Of a stretch of 64,000 bases of DNA, positions 30,859 to 60,043 are shown piece after piece. Every line of letters starts with the position of its first letter. The stretch's first letter is position 1. A program made the position numbers and the translations under genes. The stretch comes from Algicola sp. Lineage in GTDB: Bacteria; Bacteroidota; Bacteroidia; Flavobacteriales; Flavobacteriaceae. The stretch lies in contig JAAEZI010000005.1 of the NCBI GenBank assembly GCA_018222915.1, forward strand, positions 51,836 to 115,835, written 5' to 3'. Under the pieces are notes generated by a model. It was given only the letters and a program-made list of their open reading frames with translations. It was not told the origin of the DNA and ran no database searches.

Positions 30859-31941
30859 TTATCCGTTGATAATTTTTTCTTGATGATTAATGGACTCTTG
30901 GTGAATCGCTTTAAATAAGCGTAAGATAAATTCTTCACTCAGGCCTTTATCTTCACCTTCAAGAACCATTTTCCCAAGTATTTCATTCCATCTTTTACTC
31001 TGAAGAACGGCGACGTTCTTTTGTTTTTTCAATTCACCAATACCATCAGCCACCTTCATACGTTTCCCTAACAACTCAATAATTTGATTATCAACCACAT
31101 CAATCTGTGCTCTCAAATTATTTAAGGTGTTATTGTACTCGGCCTCAGGATCTGTTTCTTTACGGATTCTGAGATCTTCCATTATTTGTACAAGACTCTT
31201 TGGAGTTACCTGTTGAGCGGCATCACTCCACGCATTGTCGGGATCAAAATGTGTTTCTATCATCAAACCATCAAAGTTCAAATCCAAGGCCGTTTGTGAT
31301 ACATCAAAAATCATGTTGCGTTTTCCTGTAATATGAGATGGGTCATTTATTAAAGGTAAGTCTGGAAATTTTGTTTGAAGCTCAATGGCGATTTGCCATT
31401 CAGGATTGTTACGGTATTTAGATTTTTCATAGGTTGAAAATCCTCTATGAATAACTCCAAGGTTCATAATATCTGAAGAAGCCAATCGTTCGATAGCGCC
31501 TAGCCATAATGGCAAATCTGGATTCACTGGATTTTTAACCAAGACGATTTTATCGGTTCCCTTTAGGGCATCGGCAATTTCTTGAACAATAAATGGACTC
31601 ACCGTTGAGCGTGCACCAATCCACAACAAATCAATATCGTGTTCTAGTGCCAATTCCACATGATTTCTGTTAGCAACTTCGGTCGCTGTTTTTAATCCTG
31701 TTTCTGCTTTGACCTTTTGTAACCATTTTAGTCCTAAGGCTCCAACACCCTCAAAATTTCCAGGACGTGTTCTCGGTTTCCAAATACCTGCTCGATAATA
31801 ATTGACATCCGTATCTTTAAGCTCATGGGCAATTTTAAGGACTTGTTCTTCCGTTTCTGCACTGCAAGGACCAGCGATAACCAGTGGGTGATTTAATCCT
31901 AGATCATCCAACCATTTTCTCATTTCTTTTGTATTCTCCAT
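30859..31941 (-). CDS. Bifunctional DAHP synthase / chorismate mutase
   Basis: One polypeptide joins the first step of the shikimate pathway to the branch towards Phe and Tyr. Residues about 1-260 are a type I-beta DAHP synthase (VIAGPCSAE, KPRTRPGNFEGVG, DPSHITGKR). Residues about 270-360 are an AroQ-type chorismate mutase (LRAQIDVVDNQIIELLGKRM). The fusion is well known in Bacteroidota and is thought to allow prephenate feedback. It is the last gene of the pheA operon, nine bases after tyrA. Confidence 0.94.
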   Translation of the reverse strand: MENTKEMRKWLDDLGLNHPLVIAGPCSAETEEQVLKIAHELKDTDVNYYRAGIWKPRTRPGNFEGVGALGLKWLQKVKAETGLKTATEVANRNHVELALEHDIDLLWIGARSTVSPFIVQEIADALKGTDKIVLVKNPVNPDLPLWLGAIERLASSDIMNLGVIHRGFSTYEKSKYRNNPEWQIAIELQTKFPDLPLINDPSHITGKRNMIFDVSQTALDLNFDGLMIETHFDPDNAWSDAAQQVTPKSLVQIMEDLRIRKETDPEAEYNNTLNNLRAQIDVVDNQIIELLGKRMKVADGIGELKKQKNVAVLQSKRWNEILGKMVLEGEDKGLSEEFILRLFKAIHQESINHQEKIING

Positions 31942-31950
31942 AATTCTCTT

Positions 31951-32802
31951 TTAAGCAATTCCGTTCAATATATCTTTTATATGATTTGTATTTTTCATTT
32001 CGTTGTAAATCTCATCAAAATCATCGGCTTCCATCAAAGCCTTAAATCCTTTGAGGTTATTTATGTATTCCTCTAAAGTTTCAATAACATTGGCTCTATT
32101 TTGTTTAAAAATAGGTGTCCACATATCTGGTGAGCTTTTAGCTAAACGCACGGTACTTTCGAATCCACTTCCCGCCATATCAAAAATATCACGCTCATTT
32201 TTTTCCTTTTCAATGACGGTCTTTCCTAACATAAAGGAAGAGATATGTGACAAATGTGACACATAAGCAATATGCTTATCATGTGCTTCAGGATTCATAT
32301 AACGAATACGCATTCCCATATCTGAAAACAACTTCAGTGCTTTCTCTTGTAACTTAAAGGTCGTTTTTTCAACTTCACAAATGATGTTTGTTTTTTTCTG
32401 AAATAAGCCAGTCATAGCTGCCTTAGGTCCAGAAAACTCGGTGCCTGCAATAGGATGCGTTGCCAAAAAATTACGACGTCTTGGGTGTGATTCTACTGAT
32501 TGACAAACTGGTAATTTTGTAGATCCAACATCCACCACTAACGTCGTATCAGAAATAACATCCAGTATCTTAGGTAACACTTTTACAGCCGTATCTACAG
32601 GAATAGAAAGAATGACTAAATCGGCATGAATGAGATCCTCATACGTCGCTTTTTCTTGAATCACGTTTAAATCAATCGCCTGATCTAAATGAGCATCATT
32701 CGTATCAATCCCATAAACCTTTGCCTTAGGATTTAATGATTGTATATCCATAGCCATACTACCACCAATCAACCCAACACCTATGATGTAAATTTTATCC
32801 AT
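31951..32802 (-). CDS. tyrA: Prephenate dehydrogenase
   Basis: NAD(P)-dependent conversion of prephenate to 4-hydroxyphenylpyruvate for tyrosine. Start at 32802 gives MDKIYIIGVGLIGGS with the dinucleotide-binding motif at 8-15 and 283 residues; the frame runs 61 codons further upstream into the aminotransferase gene, which I reject. Substrate motif HPIAGTEFSG is visible. No C-terminal ACT domain, so regulation is probably at the operon level. It lies five bases after the aminotransferase gene. Confidence 0.93.
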   Translation of the reverse strand: MDKIYIIGVGLIGGSMAMDIQSLNPKAKVYGIDTNDAHLDQAIDLNVIQEKATYEDLIHADLVILSIPVDTAVKVLPKILDVISDTTLVVDVGSTKLPVCQSVESHPRRRNFLATHPIAGTEFSGPKAAMTGLFQKKTNIICEVEKTTFKLQEKALKLFSDMGMRIRYMNPEAHDKHIAYVSHLSHISSFMLGKTVIEKEKNERDIFDMAGSGFESTVRLAKSSPDMWTPIFKQNRANVIETLEEYINNLKGFKALMEADDFDEIYNEMKNTNHIKDILNGIA

Positions 32803-32807
32803 AATTT

Positions 32808-33953
32808 TTATTTCAGTCTTGCTAAAGCCTCTTCTAATTCTTCCAAAGGTGCACAAAGTGAAATCCTTATATATCTCTGACCATTGGATCCAAAAATGGT
32901 TCCAGGAGTGATAAATATCGATTTCTCTTTTAAAATTAAATCTATGTATTCTTCGGCATCTAAATATTCGGGCAGTTTTGCCCAAACAAAGAGTCCAGAT
33001 GCATTTTTATTGAATGTACAGTTTAAAGCTTCTGCAATTTTCCATACGACTTCACGACGTTGCTCATAAACACTATTGAGGCTCATATACCACATATCGG
33101 AACAGTTTAACGCTTCAACAGCGCCTTTTTGAATGCCCAAGAACATACCAGAATCCATATTACTTTTCACTCGCAATACCGCCTTTATATAATCACCATG
33201 ACCCATCAACATCCCGACGCGCCAACCTGCCATATTGAACGTTTTACTCAATGAATTTAATTCTAGACAGACCTCTGAAGCTCCTTTGTATTTCAAAATA
33301 CTTCTAGGGTATTTGTTCAAAATAAAACTGTAAGGATTATCATTAACAATGAGGATATCATTTCGCTTAGCGAAAGTGATCAAATCTTCAAAAAGCTTGT
33401 TGGTTGCAATCGTTCCTGTTGGCATGTGCGGATAGTTTACCCACATTAATTTAACGTTTTCAACCCCTCTTTTTTCTAAAGCCAGTAAATCTGGGAACCA
33501 ATGACTCTCCTCTGTTAGGTCATAAAATACAGGTTTAGCTCCCACCAAATTTGTCACGGATTTATAAGTAGGATAGCCTGGATTGGGAATCAAAACCTCA
33601 TCACCTTCATTTAAAAAAGCCATCGAAATATGCAGAATCCCTTCTTTACTACCCATTAATGGGAGCACTTCGGTTAATGGACTTAAAGGAACATTAAATC
33701 GGTCTTTATAAAATTGAACCATGGCTTCTCTGAGCTCTGGCGTTCCTTGATAACTTTGATATTTATGTGCCGCGTCTTCATTGAACGTCTCAACCAACGC
33801 GTTCAATACGCGTTCGGGCGGATTTAAATCCGGACTCCCAATCCCTAAATTAATAATAGGTTTTCCCTGGGAAATAAGCCTATTGACCTCTCTCAATTTC
33901 TTTGAAAAGTAATATTCTTCTACTTGCTTCAAACGATCAGCTATCTGTATCAT
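32808..33953 (-). CDS. Class I/II PLP aminotransferase, probably aromatic
   Basis: Fold-type I aminotransferase of 381 residues. The PLP lysine lies in SLSKTFNMAGWRVG and the NDNPYSF motif carries the ring-contacting Asp/Tyr. Its place between pheA and tyrA strongly suggests transamination of phenylpyruvate and 4-hydroxyphenylpyruvate (or of prephenate); sequence alone would also permit an aspartate or diaminopimelate aminotransferase. It overlaps pheA by four bases (ATGA). Confidence 0.88.
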   Translation of the reverse strand: MIQIADRLKQVEEYYFSKKLREVNRLISQGKPIINLGIGSPDLNPPERVLNALVETFNEDAAHKYQSYQGTPELREAMVQFYKDRFNVPLSPLTEVLPLMGSKEGILHISMAFLNEGDEVLIPNPGYPTYKSVTNLVGAKPVFYDLTEESHWFPDLLALEKRGVENVKLMWVNYPHMPTGTIATNKLFEDLITFAKRNDILIVNDNPYSFILNKYPRSILKYKGASEVCLELNSLSKTFNMAGWRVGMLMGHGDYIKAVLRVKSNMDSGMFLGIQKGAVEALNCSDMWYMSLNSVYEQRREVVWKIAEALNCTFNKNASGLFVWAKLPEYLDAEEYIDLILKEKSIFITPGTIFGSNGQRYIRISLCAPLEELEEALARLK

Positions 33954-34777
33954 AATTTCGCATTTTTATATTCCCCTAACACCTTAAAATCTTGCGCCAT
34001 GATTTCCATGATGGTTTTGGCTTTTTTATAATCCTTATAATCCTCGAAAGTGACATCTACAAAAAAAGCATACTTCCATGGTGTATCCATTTTAGGGAGT
34101 GATTGTATCTTGGTTAAATTTAGTTTACAATCACTTAAAACATTCAAAATAGTCGCCAAACTTCCTCTTTTATGGTCTAATTCAAATTTCACTGAAGCCT
34201 TATTAATTTCCGCCTCTGGAATTTCTGAATTTTTCGTCTTAACCACAAAAAAACGCGTCTCATTGTGCTTGATTGTTTGAATACTCTCTGCTAAAATCTC
34301 GAGCCCAAACAATTGAGCCGCAAGCGCAGAAGCAATTGCAGCCACTTTACTTATTTGACCTTCTTGAATGCGTCTCGCTACCTCAGCAGTATCCTTATCT
34401 TCTATCAATTTGATATGCGGGTATTGCTTAAAAAATGTCTTGCATTGTAATAAAGCCATAGGATGCGAGTATACCTCTTCAATCTCTAAAATGGATTGAT
34501 TTGGCAATGCCATCAGATGGTGTTGGATATCTAAATAATGTTCTCCTATGATATGCAATCCGTGTAAATCGATAAGTGCATAGTTTGGAATAATGGAGCC
34601 TGCAATGGAATTTTCGATAGCCATTATAGCGGCTTCACTTTGGTTATTTAAAATACTATCTGCCACAGCATCAAAAGTCAAACACTCGTTGACTGAAATC
34701 GTCTCATCAAAAAATTGCTCCGACACAATATGATGAAAAGACCCTTTAATACCCTGTATAGCGACCGATTTTATCAT
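33950..34777 (-). CDS. pheA: Prephenate dehydratase
   Basis: Converts prephenate to phenylpyruvate. Residues about 1-180 are the dehydratase domain (ENSIAGSIIPNYAL; the catalytic Thr in NETRFFVV), and a C-terminal ACT domain (KRGSLATILNVLSDCKLNLTKIQSLP) should bind Phe for feedback inhibition. Start at 34777 (MIKSVAIQG) is preferred over the ATG at 34798, which falls inside the attenuator stem. The ATG comes directly after the attenuator's T run. First gene of the operon. Confidence 0.94.
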   Translation of the reverse strand: MIKSVAIQGIKGSFHHIVSEQFFDETISVNECLTFDAVADSILNNQSEAAIMAIENSIAGSIIPNYALIDLHGLHIIGEHYLDIQHHLMALPNQSILEIEEVYSHPMALLQCKTFFKQYPHIKLIEDKDTAEVARRIQEGQISKVAAIASALAAQLFGLEILAESIQTIKHNETRFFVVKTKNSEIPEAEINKASVKFELDHKRGSLATILNVLSDCKLNLTKIQSLPKMDTPWKYAFFVDVTFEDYKDYKKAKTIMEIMAQDFKVLGEYKNAKL

Positions 34778-34804
34778 AAAAAAAGTCCCGATTTTCATCG
34801 AGAC
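34778..34804 (-). terminator. Attenuator terminator ahead of pheA
   Basis: On the minus strand GTCTCGAT (34804-34797), loop GAAA, ATCGGGAC (34792-34785) and seven T. The 8-base stem has one wobble pair. The T run ends at the pheA ATG (34777), so transcripts stopping here contain only the leader peptide. A segment overlapping the leader peptide stop, ATGAGA (34851-34846), can pair with TCTCgAT of the stem's 5' arm with one bulge, a weak possible antiterminator. Confidence 0.85.
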
Positions 34805-34847
34805 CTATATTAAATTTATTGTTTATAAATTACACATATAACGCCTC

Positions 34848-34907
34848 TCATTTCTCTGAAAAAAAGAAATAAAACCAGTTGTAATATGTGAAACTAAATG
34901 TGTTCAT
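34848..34907 (-). CDS. Aromatic leader peptide of the pheA operon (attenuation)
   Basis: A 19-residue ORF, MNTFSFTYYNWFYFFFSEK, ending TGA. Ten residues are aromatic: six Phe, three Tyr and one Trp, with the run WFYFFF just before the end. It is followed 44 bases later by an intrinsic terminator abutting pheA. This arrangement is that of a ribosome-sensing leader peptide: scarce Phe-, Tyr- or Trp-tRNA stalls the ribosome in the run and should prevent the terminator. The operon makes exactly Phe and Tyr and controls shikimate entry. It is too short for ordinary gene finders. Mechanism inferred, not shown. Confidence 0.85.
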   Translation of the reverse strand: MNTFSFTYYNWFYFFFSEK

Positions 34908-34922
34908 TGTATAATTATGTTG

Positions 34923-34952
34923 CTAATGTAATTATTATTTTAAGAAATCAAA
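34923..34952 (-). promoter_or_regulatory. Probable promoter of the leader-pheA operon
   Basis: On the minus strand TTTG (34952-34949) and TACATTAG (34930-34923), 18 bases apart; the -7 element differs from TAnnTTTG at one position. The leader peptide ATG follows about 16 bases after the -7 element. Confidence 0.55.
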
Positions 34953-35057
34953 ATTGTTCAACCACATTTTTAGGGAATCTATTTCAGTTTTAAAGATTTC
35001 ACAATTTAAACAAACACCTTACTTATAATTACTATTTTTGAATAAATTTATTGCTAT

Positions 35058-35969
35058 ATGTCTATTGAAGTTACTCATATCACCAAATGCTATGGTGAAC
35101 AAAAGGCTTTGGATGATATTACCTTCTCTGTAAATAAAGGTGAAATTGTTGGTTTTTTGGGTCCAAATGGTGCCGGAAAATCAACATTAATGAAAATACT
35201 TACCACATATATTGAGGCTACTGAGGGCGAAGCAAAAGTTAATGGGTTTAATGTACAAAGCGAAAAAATGGCTGTTCAAAAGAGCGTTGGATATTTACCA
35301 GAGCACAACCCGCTTTATTTAGACATGTACGTTAAGGAATATTTAAAGTTTAACGCTGGTGTTTATAATATCAATTCATCTCGAATAGAAGAGGTTATTT
35401 CCTTAACAGGTTTAACACCAGAATCCCACAAGAAAATAGGACAATTATCAAAAGGGTATCGACAACGTGTTGGACTGGCCAACGCATTGTTACACGATCC
35501 GTCGGTTTTAATTTTAGACGAACCTACAACAGGTCTTGATCCTAACCAATTAATTGATATTAGACATCTTATTAAAAATATTGGTAAGGACAAGACCGTA
35601 TTTCTCTCCACTCACATCATGCAGGAGGTAGAGGCTATTTGTGACCGTGTGATTATCATCAACAAAGGTAAAGTTGTTGCAGACAAGAAACTCAAAGAAT
35701 TACGAGATGAGAAAGAACAGACGGTTATTGTAGAATTTGATTATCGGGTTGAAGATGCGTTTCTTCTCAAACTACCAAAAGTTAATCGTGTGAAAAATAC
35801 GCATGATTTTGTTTATGAAATCACCTTTTCTACTTCGGAAGATATGCGTTCACATGTGTTTGATTTCGCACATGACAATCAGTTAAAAATTCTTCAATTA
35901 AATCAGAAAAATGCCAGTTTGGAAAGTTTATTCAGAGATTTGACAACGGAGGCTATTCCTCAAAAATAA
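35058..35969 (+). CDS. gldA: Gliding motility ABC transporter ATP-binding protein GldA
   Basis: ATPase of the GldA/GldF/GldG ABC complex associated with gliding. Walker A GPNGAGKST (35-43), ABC signature LSKGYRQRVGLA, Walker B VLILDEPTTGLDP and the switch His (STHIM) are intact. Length of 303 residues with the C-terminal regulatory domain is typical of GldA. GldF and GldG are not nearby. Without them a generic ABC exporter role is possible, but the N-terminal MSIEVTHITK and overall pattern fit GldA. A TATTTTTG -7 element is at 35033-35040. Its end overlaps the next, convergent gene by 17 bases. Confidence 0.85.
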   Translation: MSIEVTHITKCYGEQKALDDITFSVNKGEIVGFLGPNGAGKSTLMKILTTYIEATEGEAKVNGFNVQSEKMAVQKSVGYLPEHNPLYLDMYVKEYLKFNAGVYNINSSRIEEVISLTGLTPESHKKIGQLSKGYRQRVGLANALLHDPSVLILDEPTTGLDPNQLIDIRHLIKNIGKDKTVFLSTHIMQEVEAICDRVIIINKGKVVADKKLKELRDEKEQTVIVEFDYRVEDAFLLKLPKVNRVKNTHDFVYEITFSTSEDMRSHVFDFAHDNQLKILQLNQKNASLESLFRDLTTEAIPQK

Positions 35970-45401: not shown

Positions 45402-46694
45402 TTAAATTAAAACTGTCTTTTTTACAATGTCGAAAGCTTCTCTTAAATCAGCTTTTAAGTCATTAATATCCTCAATACCAACCGAAAGACGAATGAGATC
45501 CTTTGATACTCCTGTCGCTAATTGTGACTCATCACTCAGTTGCTGATGCGTTGTACTTGCTGGATGAATAATTAATGATTTCGTATCACCGATATTAGCT
45601 AACAAGGAGAATATTTTAGTTGTATCCACTATTTTTTTTGCAGATTCATAGCCACCATCAACGCCGAATGTGACGATACCACTTTGTCCATTAGGCAAAT
45701 ATTTTTTGGCTAACTGCTTATATTTACTAGACTCTAAACCAGGATAATTTACCCAATTCACCTCAGGTTGCTCTTGCAACCATTTGGCCAATTCAAGTGC
45801 GTTTTGACTATGTTTTTTAATGCGCAGCTCCAGCGTTTCTAAACCTTGAATAATTTGAAATGCATTAAACGGACTCAAAGCACCACCATAATCGCGCAGA
45901 CCTTCGATCCTAACCTTTGCAATAAAAGCAGCTGCTCCTATAGCTTCATTATAAACCAAGCCATGATAACCAGGAGACGGTTCGGTAAACTCCGGAAATT
46001 TGCCATTTCCCCAATCAAAAGTTCCAGCATCTATAATAACACCTCCTAAGGACGTACCGTTTCCATTGATATACTTGGTTAAAGAGTGAATGACAATATT
46101 GGCACCATATGCAATTGGATTCAACAAATACGGTGTAGCCACCGTATTGTCCACAATTAGTGGCACTTTATAAGCTCTAGCTTCTTTTGATATCGCTTCG
46201 ATATCCAATACATCTAATTTCGGATTTCCTAAAGATTCAACAAAAAACACGCGTGTATTTTCTTGAGCTGCCTTTTGAAAGTTTTCAGGATCAGATGGAT
46301 CTACAAAGCTTGTTGTAATACCATGTCTTGGTAGCGTTACACTGAGCAAATTATAAGTCCCACCATAAAGACTATTCGAGGCAACAATGTGATCGCCAGC
46401 CTTCAATAAAGTGAGTAAGGTAGTTGAAATGGCCGAGGTTCCAGAAGCTGTTACAACGGCTGCAATACCACCTTCTAGAGCAGCCAATCTCTGCTCCAAA
46501 ACATCGTTCGTTGGGTTATTCAATCTCGTGTAGATAAAACCTGGTACTGATAAGTTAAATCGCCCTGCAGCATCATCAGCATTATCAAATACATAGGATG
46601 TGGATTGATAAATTGGAACGGCTCTCGTTCCTGCATTTTGACTAACATCATGTCCAGCGTGCAACGCTTGTGTTGCAAATTTTTGTGTACTCAT
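45402..46694 (-). CDS. metY: O-acetylhomoserine sulfhydrylase
   Basis: Cys/Met metabolism PLP enzyme that forms homocysteine directly from O-acetylhomoserine and sulfide. The start at 46694 (MSTQKFATQALHAGHD) gives 430 residues, the usual size for MetY; an open frame up to 46739 adds 15 atypical residues and is rejected. The PLP lysine is in HSLTKYINGNGT. First gene of the operon, preceded by the SAM-I riboswitch. Confidence 0.93.
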   Translation of the reverse strand: MSTQKFATQALHAGHDVSQNAGTRAVPIYQSTSYVFDNADDAAGRFNLSVPGFIYTRLNNPTNDVLEQRLAALEGGIAAVVTASGTSAISTTLLTLLKAGDHIVASNSLYGGTYNLLSVTLPRHGITTSFVDPSDPENFQKAAQENTRVFFVESLGNPKLDVLDIEAISKEARAYKVPLIVDNTVATPYLLNPIAYGANIVIHSLTKYINGNGTSLGGVIIDAGTFDWGNGKFPEFTEPSPGYHGLVYNEAIGAAAFIAKVRIEGLRDYGGALSPFNAFQIIQGLETLELRIKKHSQNALELAKWLQEQPEVNWVNYPGLESSKYKQLAKKYLPNGQSGIVTFGVDGGYESAKKIVDTTKIFSLLANIGDTKSLIIHPASTTHQQLSDESQLATGVSKDLIRLSVGIEDINDLKADLREAFDIVKKTVLI

Positions 46695-46817
46695 TTTTCT
46701 AAGTTTTTGAGTTAATAAATAAATTAAAACAAAAGCCAAATAAGCTTCAAAGGAAGCATACTTAATAGAAAAATGTTAAAAAGAAATACGTAACTACAGA
46801 TGAGTAATTACGTTTGG

Positions 46818-58363: not shown

Positions 58364-60043
58364 TTAAAATTCATCGGTCACACAACCTTTAGATGCTGAT
58401 GACACAGTTTTTGCATATTTATAGAGAACACCTCGATCAAATTTTAAGTCTGGTGCCTTCCATTGTTGTTTTCTTTCTTGTAATACCTCATCGGAAACCT
58501 CAACTGAAATTGTATTCGTCTCGGCATCAATCGTGATAGTATCACCGTCTTTCACCAAAGCTATGGTACCACCTTCCTGTGCCTCTGGCGTAATATGTCC
58601 AACCACAAAGCCGTGGGTGCCTCCAGAAAAGCGACCATCTGTTATGAGTGCCACATCATTTCCTAATCCGGCTCCCATAATAGCTGCTGTGGGTTTTAGC
58701 ATTTCTGGCATTCCTGGTCCACCTTTGGGTCCTTCATATCGAATAACGACGACATCACCTTTCTTTACAAGGCCATTCCTGATACCATCATTTGCTTCAT
58801 ATTCACCCTCAAACACCTTGGCTTTCCCTGTAAATCGGAGACCTTCTTTGCCGGTTATTTTTGCGACGCTACCCTCTTCAGCCAAATTGCCGTACAACAT
58901 CCTGAGATGTCCTGAAATTTTAATCGGCTTTTCAATAGGTTTAATGACTTGCTGGCCTTCTTCAAGATCATTAACATCCAATAAGTTTTCAGCGATAGTT
59001 TTACCAGTAACAGTTAGACAATCTCCATGAATTAGTCCCTTCTTCAAGAGGTATTTTAGCACTGCAGGAATGCCTCCTACAGCATGCACATCTTCCATAA
59101 GATATTGACCACTAGGCTTCAAATCAGCCAAAAATGGTGTTTGATCACTGATGTCTTGAAAATCCTTAAGTGTGAAATCTATTTGCGCAGCTCTAGCGAT
59201 TGCCAGAAAGTGAAGTACCGCATTGGTAGAACCTCCTAAAATGGTCACAAGACGTACAGCATTTTCTAATGATTTTCTAGTGATAATATCGGAAGGTTTA
59301 ATATCTTTTTCTAAAAGTGTGCGCATCGCTTCTCCTGCCAGAATCGACTCTTTCTTTTTTGCATCACTCAAAGCAGGATTGGAAGAATTGAAGGGCAATG
59401 ACATTCCTAATGCTTCAATTGCTGAAGCCATTGTATTGGCCGTATACATCCCACCACAAGCACCTGCTCCTGGACAGGCTTTTTCAACGATATTTTGATA
59501 TTCATTTTCTGTCATGGTCCCAGCCACCTTACTACCCCAAGCTTCAAATGCGGAGACAACGTCTAGTTTTTTTCCATTATGACATCCTGAATCAATCGTC
59601 CCACCATAAACGAGAATACTTGGACGATTTAAACGTATCATTGCCATCAATGCGCCAGGCATATTTTTATCGCAACCTACAACCGTAACTAAACCATCAT
59701 AGCTCATCGCCTGAACAACTGTTTCCATGGAATCAGCGATGATATCACGAGAAGGTAATGAATAACGCATTCCAGGCGTTCCCATAGAAATACCATCACT
59801 TACACCAATAGTATTAAAAATCAATCCTACCACATCTTCACTTTTAGTCCCTTCCTTGACCAGCTGTGCTAAGTCATTTAAATGCATATTACATGGATTG
59901 CCTTCATAACCAGTACTGGCAATACCGATGATAGGTTTGTAAAAATCTTCCTTAGTTAATCCGATAGCATGTAACATTGCCTGTGCCGCAGGTTGTGTTG
60001 GATCTTGTGTTACAGTTTTACTGTATTTATTCAGTTCACTCAT
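58364..60043 (-). CDS. ilvD: Dihydroxy-acid dehydratase
   Basis: Iron-sulfur dehydratase, third common step of branched-chain synthesis. Cluster cysteines Cys51 (GNPCNMH), Cys124 (GCDKNMPG) and Cys196 (GACGGMY) are visible, consistent with the [2Fe-2S] type. First gene of the ilv operon. The 248-base gap before it holds only the gltD terminator; I found no convincing branched-chain leader peptide there. Confidence 0.95.

Follow-up and report, generated by a model that had tools for sequence, protein, structure and literature searches.

Known leader-peptide attenuators and the pheA locus of an Algicola genome

Attenuation of transcription by a leader peptide is textbook knowledge in Escherichia coli, where the pheL attenuator combines a terminator with a competing pairing. 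In the present study, we analysed a stretch of 64,000 nt (nucleotides) from Algicola sp., a member of the Flavobacteriaceae (referred to as the window), in which a short ORF (open reading frame) rich in codons for Phe (phenylalanine), Tyr (tyrosine) and Trp (tryptophan), followed by a predicted terminator, precedes the operon pheA–aminotransferase–tyrA–DAHP (3-deoxy-D-arabino-heptulosonate 7-phosphate) synthase. We hold with high confidence that the leader ORF, a covarying arm and the predicted terminator together constitute a ribosome-mediated transcription attenuator of this four-gene operon, and it is very likely that this attenuator is of the classical ribosome-mediated kind, in a phylum where such control has hardly been described.

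Like the element described here, E. coli pheL encodes a Phe leader peptide upstream of pheA, which is regulated by Phe-charged tRNA according to a passage of PMC11802643. In E. coli, pheA encodes a chorismate mutase–prephenate dehydratase and pheL is read as a sensor of Phe, whereas in the window codons for Phe, Tyr and Trp stand before a four-gene operon for Phe, Tyr and DAHP. The Rfam model Phe_leader (RF01859) scored 18.9 bits on this locus (E value 0.96) against a gathering threshold of 55, and membership of that family was rejected on this score. A second comparison is offered by AroR of the Corynebacterium glutamicum aroF operon (Neshat et al. 2014, as cited in a passage of PMC11802643), where, as here, a leader with Phe and Tyr codons precedes a DAHP synthase operon and acts by ribosome-mediated attenuation. 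However, AroR contains Phe-Tyr-Phe only, Tyr supply is reportedly without effect, and both the phylum and the operon are different (same passage). The uORFC-13-1 motif, a candidate RNA, has an upstream ORF with at least one Phe codon beside a terminator, similar to the arrangement here, and is likened by its authors to the hypothesised attenuation of aroF in E. coli; it differs in that it was reportedly found only in one genus, and the searched text of PMC8632094 contains neither ‘Bacteroid’ nor ‘Flavobact’.

For the Bacteroidota, structured 5′ elements that are shared with other genera have been described before pheA and hisG of Flavobacterium psychrophilum in a section of PMC9723704, which also speaks of ‘strong clues’ for attenuation by leader peptides ahead of amino-acid operons. 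The pheA element described there is very probably the same as ours. For pheA itself that section describes neither a peptide and its codons nor an antiterminator or a mechanism; we add here the conservation of the aromatic codons, a covarying antiterminator, the stall geometry and the spread beyond the family. In addition, small ORFs of Bacteroides thetaiotaomicron have been called ‘reminiscent of leader peptides’ (in an excerpt of PMC7366714). Passages of PMC4833913 treat leader genes generally, with leader-peptide attenuation known in Actinobacteria, and cite a comparative survey of attenuation published by Lopatovskaya et al. in 2010, which may cover Bacteroidetes. Our literature search, with subscription papers mostly outside its scope, recognized no aromatic leader in Bacteroidota beyond PMC9723704, and found only brief mentions of leader-peptide attenuation in this phylum.

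The leader ORF and predicted terminator before pheA

Direct reading of the minus strand confirmed that MNTFSFTYYNWFYFFFSEK comprises 19 codons, of which six encode Phe, three Tyr and one Trp, and that a run of seven T abuts the pheA ATG at 34777, both as proposed in the initial annotation of this DNA. The terminator hairpin, with arms GTCTCGAT/ATCGGGAC, four G-C pairs among its ten and a loop of 4 nt, is the sole terminator-like site in 34600..35200 (34806..34783; one found, compared with a mean of 0.2 in shuffled sequences). The initial annotation had described an 8-bp terminator 44 bases from the leader stop codon; such a core is indeed present (34804..34797 with 34792..34785, including one U.G pair), but lies at a distance of 43 bases and forms part of the full ten-pair hairpin. 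The predicted RNA fold of 34776..34920 has an energy of −29.7 kcal/mol and a z score of −3.84, which none of 200 shuffles equalled.

All four genes of the operon are on the minus strand, overlapping or separated by gaps of at most 9 nt, and their identities, which had been assigned without database searches, were borne out by Pfam. The next gene upstream of the leader, which encodes an ABC (ATP-binding cassette) transporter ATPase, starts at 35058 on the plus strand and is divergent, and the leader and terminator therefore belong to pheA. We also considered an in-frame ATG at 34798, inside the terminator stem-loop, as the pheA start, and rejected it because relatives with a more distant hairpin start at the equivalent of 34777. 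Among named relatives, Psychroserpens jangbogonensis has the most similar PheA, with 87% identity.

Conservation of the leader and terminator among relatives

We compared 231 pheA loci (80 named, 31 from the source and related genomes and 120 from the family, order and class), which reduced to 208 distinct loci, window included, when those with an identical 150-nt upstream sequence were merged. The 120 loci were hand-picked from match listings, within the family mostly one per genus, and the most distant family members are under-sampled because the family matches listed reach only ~62% identity. The 165 family loci comprise genomes marked as own, same genus or same family together with the 80 named loci, whose assignment to the family rests on their names and on PheA identities of at least 73% and which include a few metagenome bins named only to phylum. 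A leader was scored when an ATG-initiated ORF of 8–45 codons, with at least six Phe, Tyr or Trp codons, at least 28% aromatic codons and a run of three, lay within 300 nt of pheA.

By this rule a leader was found in 181 of the 208 distinct pheA upstream regions, compared with 85 of 4160 dinucleotide shuffles. Among control regions before ORFs of at least 150 codons in the same loci, 24 of 670 passed, 20 of which were themselves pheA regions, leaving four. These data clearly show that the aromatic leader ORF and terminator before pheA are real and not a product of chance. It is true that A/T-rich DNA readily yields Phe codons, as the shuffles that passed illustrate, but the idea of a chance T-rich ORF beside the unrelated terminator of a neighbouring gene is hardly credible given the number of loci that pass and the block–terminator spacing and covariation described below; in addition, as the upstream gene is divergent, no same-strand gene directly upstream needs a terminator. 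Both parts of this explanation, the chance ORF and the neighbour's terminator, were rejected on these grounds.

Within the family, 159 of 165 loci carry the leader. Elsewhere it was scored in 22 of 43 loci, six of 17 from other families of the order and 16 of 26 from other branches of the class. The arrangement is thus nearly universal among the sampled members of this large family, and other families of the class have it too. The six family loci missed by the rule do not reflect loss of the leader: in four it lies farther from pheA (L035, L040, L043 and L181; −306 to −646) and two lie at contig ends, L030 showing an aromatic frame without a start and L032 only the part after the aromatic frame. 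Outside the family, five loci (L111, L199, L207, L214 and L225) have candidate leaders that fall below the strict rule and were caught with a looser one, and some loci lack the leader, among them seven from a single family of the order and one from a genome of 0.6 Mb. In these seven (L194, L195 and L200–L204), which have no attenuator, an open frame ends 2–23 nt before pheA in five, which suggests that the attenuator may have been lost as pheA moved into another operon.

A scripted search found the terminator behind 173 of the 181 leaders. We defined the aromatic block as ending at the last run of at least two aromatic codons, which excludes a lone later Tyr, and the distance from its end to the terminator proved nearly constant (median 53 nt; 5–95% range 48–58 nt), whereas that from the terminator to pheA ranged from 5 to 101 nt (5–95%), which gives leader and terminator the appearance of a single module. 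The terminator stem is itself conserved with covariation: in an alignment of 88 of 123 diverse sequences, from which class-sample loci and some of unusual length were left out, 98.8% of cells are paired and six of the ten pairs show two-sided changes, and none of 500 shuffles scored as high on any of the five covariation measures.

The spacing also bears on whether the element might act mainly on translation, with the hairpin hiding the pheA start region and a stalled leader ribosome opening it. In favour of such a role, 7 nt separate the hairpin core and the pheA ATG in the window, and in 54 of the 173 loci the end of the stem is no more than 12 nt from the start of pheA, but in the other 119 the hairpin is further away (~100 nt at the far 5% end). 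As the T run, stem and leader spacing are kept where the hairpin is distant from pheA, termination explains the pattern better, and we regard a mainly translational role as very unlikely; an added translational effect of the hairpin is conceivable in this genus.

Two groups of loci illustrate how the region between attenuator and pheA varies. In the close relatives L011, L017 and L018 the terminator–pheA distance jumps from 0 to ~100 nt while the leader and terminator stay fixed, and pheA starts with TTG in L011 and L017. In Gelidibacter (L040, L043, L035 and L029), repeat-like stretches with the inverted repeat ‘TCCCGCC...GGCGGGA’ lie between the attenuator and pheA; they share a ‘AACTAGTTGAACTAATC’ part, which is found once, in varied form, in L029 and L035 and several times in L040 and L043, and in Gelidibacter loci with repeats the leader sits as far as −646 from pheA.

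The proposed antiterminator arm and predicted stall geometry

The initial annotation had noted that a segment at the leader stop codon can pair weakly with the 5′ arm of the terminator. In the window this segment, GAGGC, pairs with GTCTC with a best duplex energy of −7.4 kcal/mol, and it is indeed weak in this genome, but in relatives the pairing is often longer and covaries with the terminator 5′ arm, so that the antiterminator is better supported than the word ‘weak’ had implied. In 138 of 166 loci a purine arm (GAGAC, GAGGC, GGGAC and so on) lies 11–12 nt past the block; such arms pair with terminator 5′ arms of types such as GTCTC, GTCCC and GCCTC. Complete pairing between the 5-mers of arm and terminator is seen in 152 of the 166, compared with a mean of 125 and a maximum of 134 in 2000 re-dealings. 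Without recourse to an alignment, the arm region binds the cognate terminator 5′ arm with −10.9 kcal/mol, compared with −5.7 when the arm region is shuffled, and the cognate pairing is stronger than the shuffled mean in 172 of 173 loci. GTCCC-type terminators gave −14.3 kcal/mol with their own arms and −6.25 with the arms of GTCTC-type species.

We also modelled a transcript that reaches the terminator loop and carries a ribosome with its front 12 nt beyond the A site, and folded the RNA downstream of this ribosome. In the window the antiterminator had a probability of ~1.0 whichever block codon occupied the A site, and of 0.87, 0.46, 0.19 and 0.04 at the next four codons, the fourth being the stop codon. 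The corresponding means over the 173 loci were 0.99 on the block, then 0.83, 0.43, 0.20 and 0.21, with 0.21 at the stop codon. Placing the ribosome front 9, 12 or 15 nt past the A site moved the switch point by one codon each way.

Upstream of the leader lies a conserved motif that resembles a promoter (Table 1): a TTG/TAnnTTTG-type promoter with at least five of six box letters precedes 136 of the 173 leaders, compared with seven of 173 mononucleotide-shuffled sequences. TAnnTTTG is the sigma-A −7 box consensus in F. psychrophilum, where it occupies −12 to −5 (section of PMC9723704).

The ORF, the hairpin with its T run, the operon, their conservation, the spacing and the covarying arm rest on sequence and comparison, and from them we infer the transcription start, translation of the leader, termination, stalling, the response to starvation and which aromatic tRNAs count. 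Transcription would start ~11 nt upstream of the leader ATG. When aromatic tRNA is plentiful, the ribosome would reach the leader stop codon and cover the GAGGC arm, whereupon the GTCTCGAT/ATCGGGAC hairpin could form and RNA polymerase would stop at the T run. When charged tRNA is scarce, the ribosome would stall within the block, at a codon for Tyr, Trp or Phe, and leave the downstream arm free to pair with the 5′ half of the terminator, so that the operon would be read. The predicted outcome is raised expression of the pheA–aminotransferase–tyrA–DAHP synthase operon under scarcity of charged aromatic tRNA, and with this proposal the regulation of the shikimate pathway in Bacteroidota becomes directly testable.

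Several results weigh against this interpretation. The loci are related by descent and no count is independent, and eight of the 181 leaders lack a terminator in the scripted search. The arm in this genome makes just five pairs, one of them G.U; seven of the 173 loci, being without the motif, were left out of the 5-mer count; GTCCC-type arms bind GTCTC-type terminators with −9.4 kcal/mol, nearly as well as these bind their own arms (−10.0); and the mean rank fraction of the cognate arm among all arms is 0.39, a moderate value because most loci share one arm type. In the MAFFT alignment A1 the antiterminator helix is 81.8% paired, a lower score partly because one subgroup is shifted by one base, and two of its five measures fail against shuffles (289 and 453 of 500 as high), with three beating them. 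In the folding model, the mean antiterminator probability rises again to 0.26–0.35 over the fifth to eighth codons past the block, a place where many relatives carry a single late Tyr (..LYV) at which a stall would not switch the structure. Without a ribosome the antiterminator still has a probability of 0.86 in the window and a mean of 0.66; as the ribosome-free model thus favours the antiterminator, a protective 1:2 hairpin, or basal repression by it, is not clearly predicted. The pairs of the 1:2 hairpin are 74.7% formed in the alignment, yet with excess covariation.

Codon constraint and the amino acids that may be read

The conservation extends to individual codons, leader ORF and terminator being kept in relatives with differences that leave the leader codons aromatic, the outcome that the initial annotation had named as support for its proposal. 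In the final twelve block codons the aromatic share is 72% in frame, compared with 19 and 30% in the other frames, and there are no in-frame stops, compared with 5 and 112, a result that is favoured by the choice of frame in the leader rule. Single-base differences at aromatic codons between leader cores at least 70% identical, in pairs that are not independent, comprised 1514 synonymous (45.6%), 1657 aromatic-to-aromatic (49.9%) and 151 other changes (4.5%), whereas 23% aromatic-preserving and 77% other or stop would be expected for single-base changes at such codons.

These data also bear on the suggestion that a riboswitch or T-box RNA controls pheA and that the short ORF is incidental. The region is structured, as the z score given above shows, and no Rfam family reaches threshold here, which leaves room for such an RNA; however, codons and frame are conserved, as the stop counts indicate, and the best-conserved RNA pairing is that of the terminator and its competitor. 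Rfam covariance models for T-boxes and riboswitches gave no match at the leader position, on which ground this control was rejected, and we consider it highly improbable.

Phe and Tyr codons are present in all 173 leaders with a terminator, and Trp codons in 126 of them. The initial annotation held that one leader appears to read all three aromatic amino acids; the attenuator may do so, and its leader is an attractive candidate for sensing at least two of them, but the sensing of Trp is the least secure part. In practice the attenuator might respond to Phe only, or perhaps to Phe and Tyr, with the Trp codon and some Tyr codons as passengers, a version that we judge quite possible, if slightly short of an even chance. 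It would fit the Phe codons found at each of the last three block positions in 151–159 of 173 leaders, the lack of Trp in 38 of the 159 leaders within the family and in 17 of the 22 outside it (Trp codons being present in the remaining 121 and five respectively), the leader of WWW type that trpE has for itself in the source genome, and the C. glutamicum Phe-Tyr-Phe leader AroR, whose operon is reportedly unaffected by Tyr availability (passage of PMC11802643). Against it, Tyr occurs in every one of the 173 leaders, with a mean of 3.8 per leader, lone late Tyr included; TGG occurs 125 times in frame over the last twelve block codons, compared with once and six times in the other frames; and Trp recurs at varied places in differently built leaders. 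In addition, stalls at the Tyr and Trp codons of the block are no less effective in freeing the antiterminator than those at Phe in the folding model, and the operon itself makes Tyr and opens the pathway to Trp.

A broader picture that joins these points is offered tentatively and is, in our estimation, rather doubtful. The leader would act as an OR gate, in which shortage of charged Phe-, Tyr- or Trp-tRNA would each stall the ribosome where the antiterminator forms fully, so that one RNA would tie the Phe and Tyr branches and the first enzyme of the pathway to the whole aromatic pool; control by Phe and Tyr would be ancient in the Bacteroidia, with Trp largely an addition of the Flavobacteriaceae, and the hairpin abutting the pheA ATG would also gate translation of pheA.

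Table 1 Coordinates of the leader, attenuator and operon features in the window
Feature	Position	Strand	Basis
Predicted promoter: TTG 34951–34949, 18-nt spacer, −7 box TACATTAG 34930–34923, ending 15 nt before the leader ATG	34923..34951	−	Conserved motif
Leader peptide ORF, MNTFSFTYYNWFYFFFSEK*	34848..34907	−	ATG 34907 to TGA 34848, read directly, and comparison
Aromatic codon block Tyr-Tyr-Asn-Trp-Phe-Tyr-Phe-Phe-Phe; predicted ribosome stall region	34860..34886	−	Sequence and folding model
Antiterminator arm GAGGC, right after the leader stop codon; pairs with 34804–34800	34843..34847	−	Duplex energies, covariation, folding model
Terminator hairpin, 10 pairs including two G.U, loop GAAA	34783..34806	−	Terminator scan, fold, covariation
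Seven-T run, adjoining the pheA start codon	34778..34784	−	Direct reading, terminator scan
pheA, prephenate dehydratase	33950..34777	−	PF00800
Class I/II aminotransferase	32808..33953	−	PF00155
tyrA, prephenate dehydrogenase	31951..32802	−	PF02153, PF20463
DAHP synthase–chorismate mutase fusion	30859..31941	−	PF00793, PF01817

Other leaders and RNA elements in the source genome

By eye, we found two sister leaders elsewhere in the source genome, each followed by a hairpin and T run. A His (histidine) leader, MNFIQLHHHHFHTCTQAS (LHHHHFH), precedes hisG on contig C82 (L232), and a Trp leader with three consecutive Trp codons, MNTILNHTWWWATRNSKFVS (TWWWA), precedes trpE on contig C49 (L233). With these two, leader-peptide attenuation looks like a habit of this genome. 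No branched-chain leader was obvious by eye at ilvD (domain at 58985–59938 of the window, minus strand), and the two homoserine dehydrogenase loci offer little upstream sequence for such an inspection. A scan of the source genome for the FYFFF codon string gave nine matches, the leader included, compared with eight for the reversed control; four of the eight other matches were checked for frame and lie in stop-to-stop stretches of 42–69 codons. Finally, the only match at gathering level to Rfam in the whole window is an SAM (S-adenosylmethionine) riboswitch (RF00162; 46816–46942, minus strand; 72.5 bits), which precedes a 445-codon ORF (45402–46739) whose product looks, by eye, like an O-acetylhomoserine sulfhydrylase-type enzyme.
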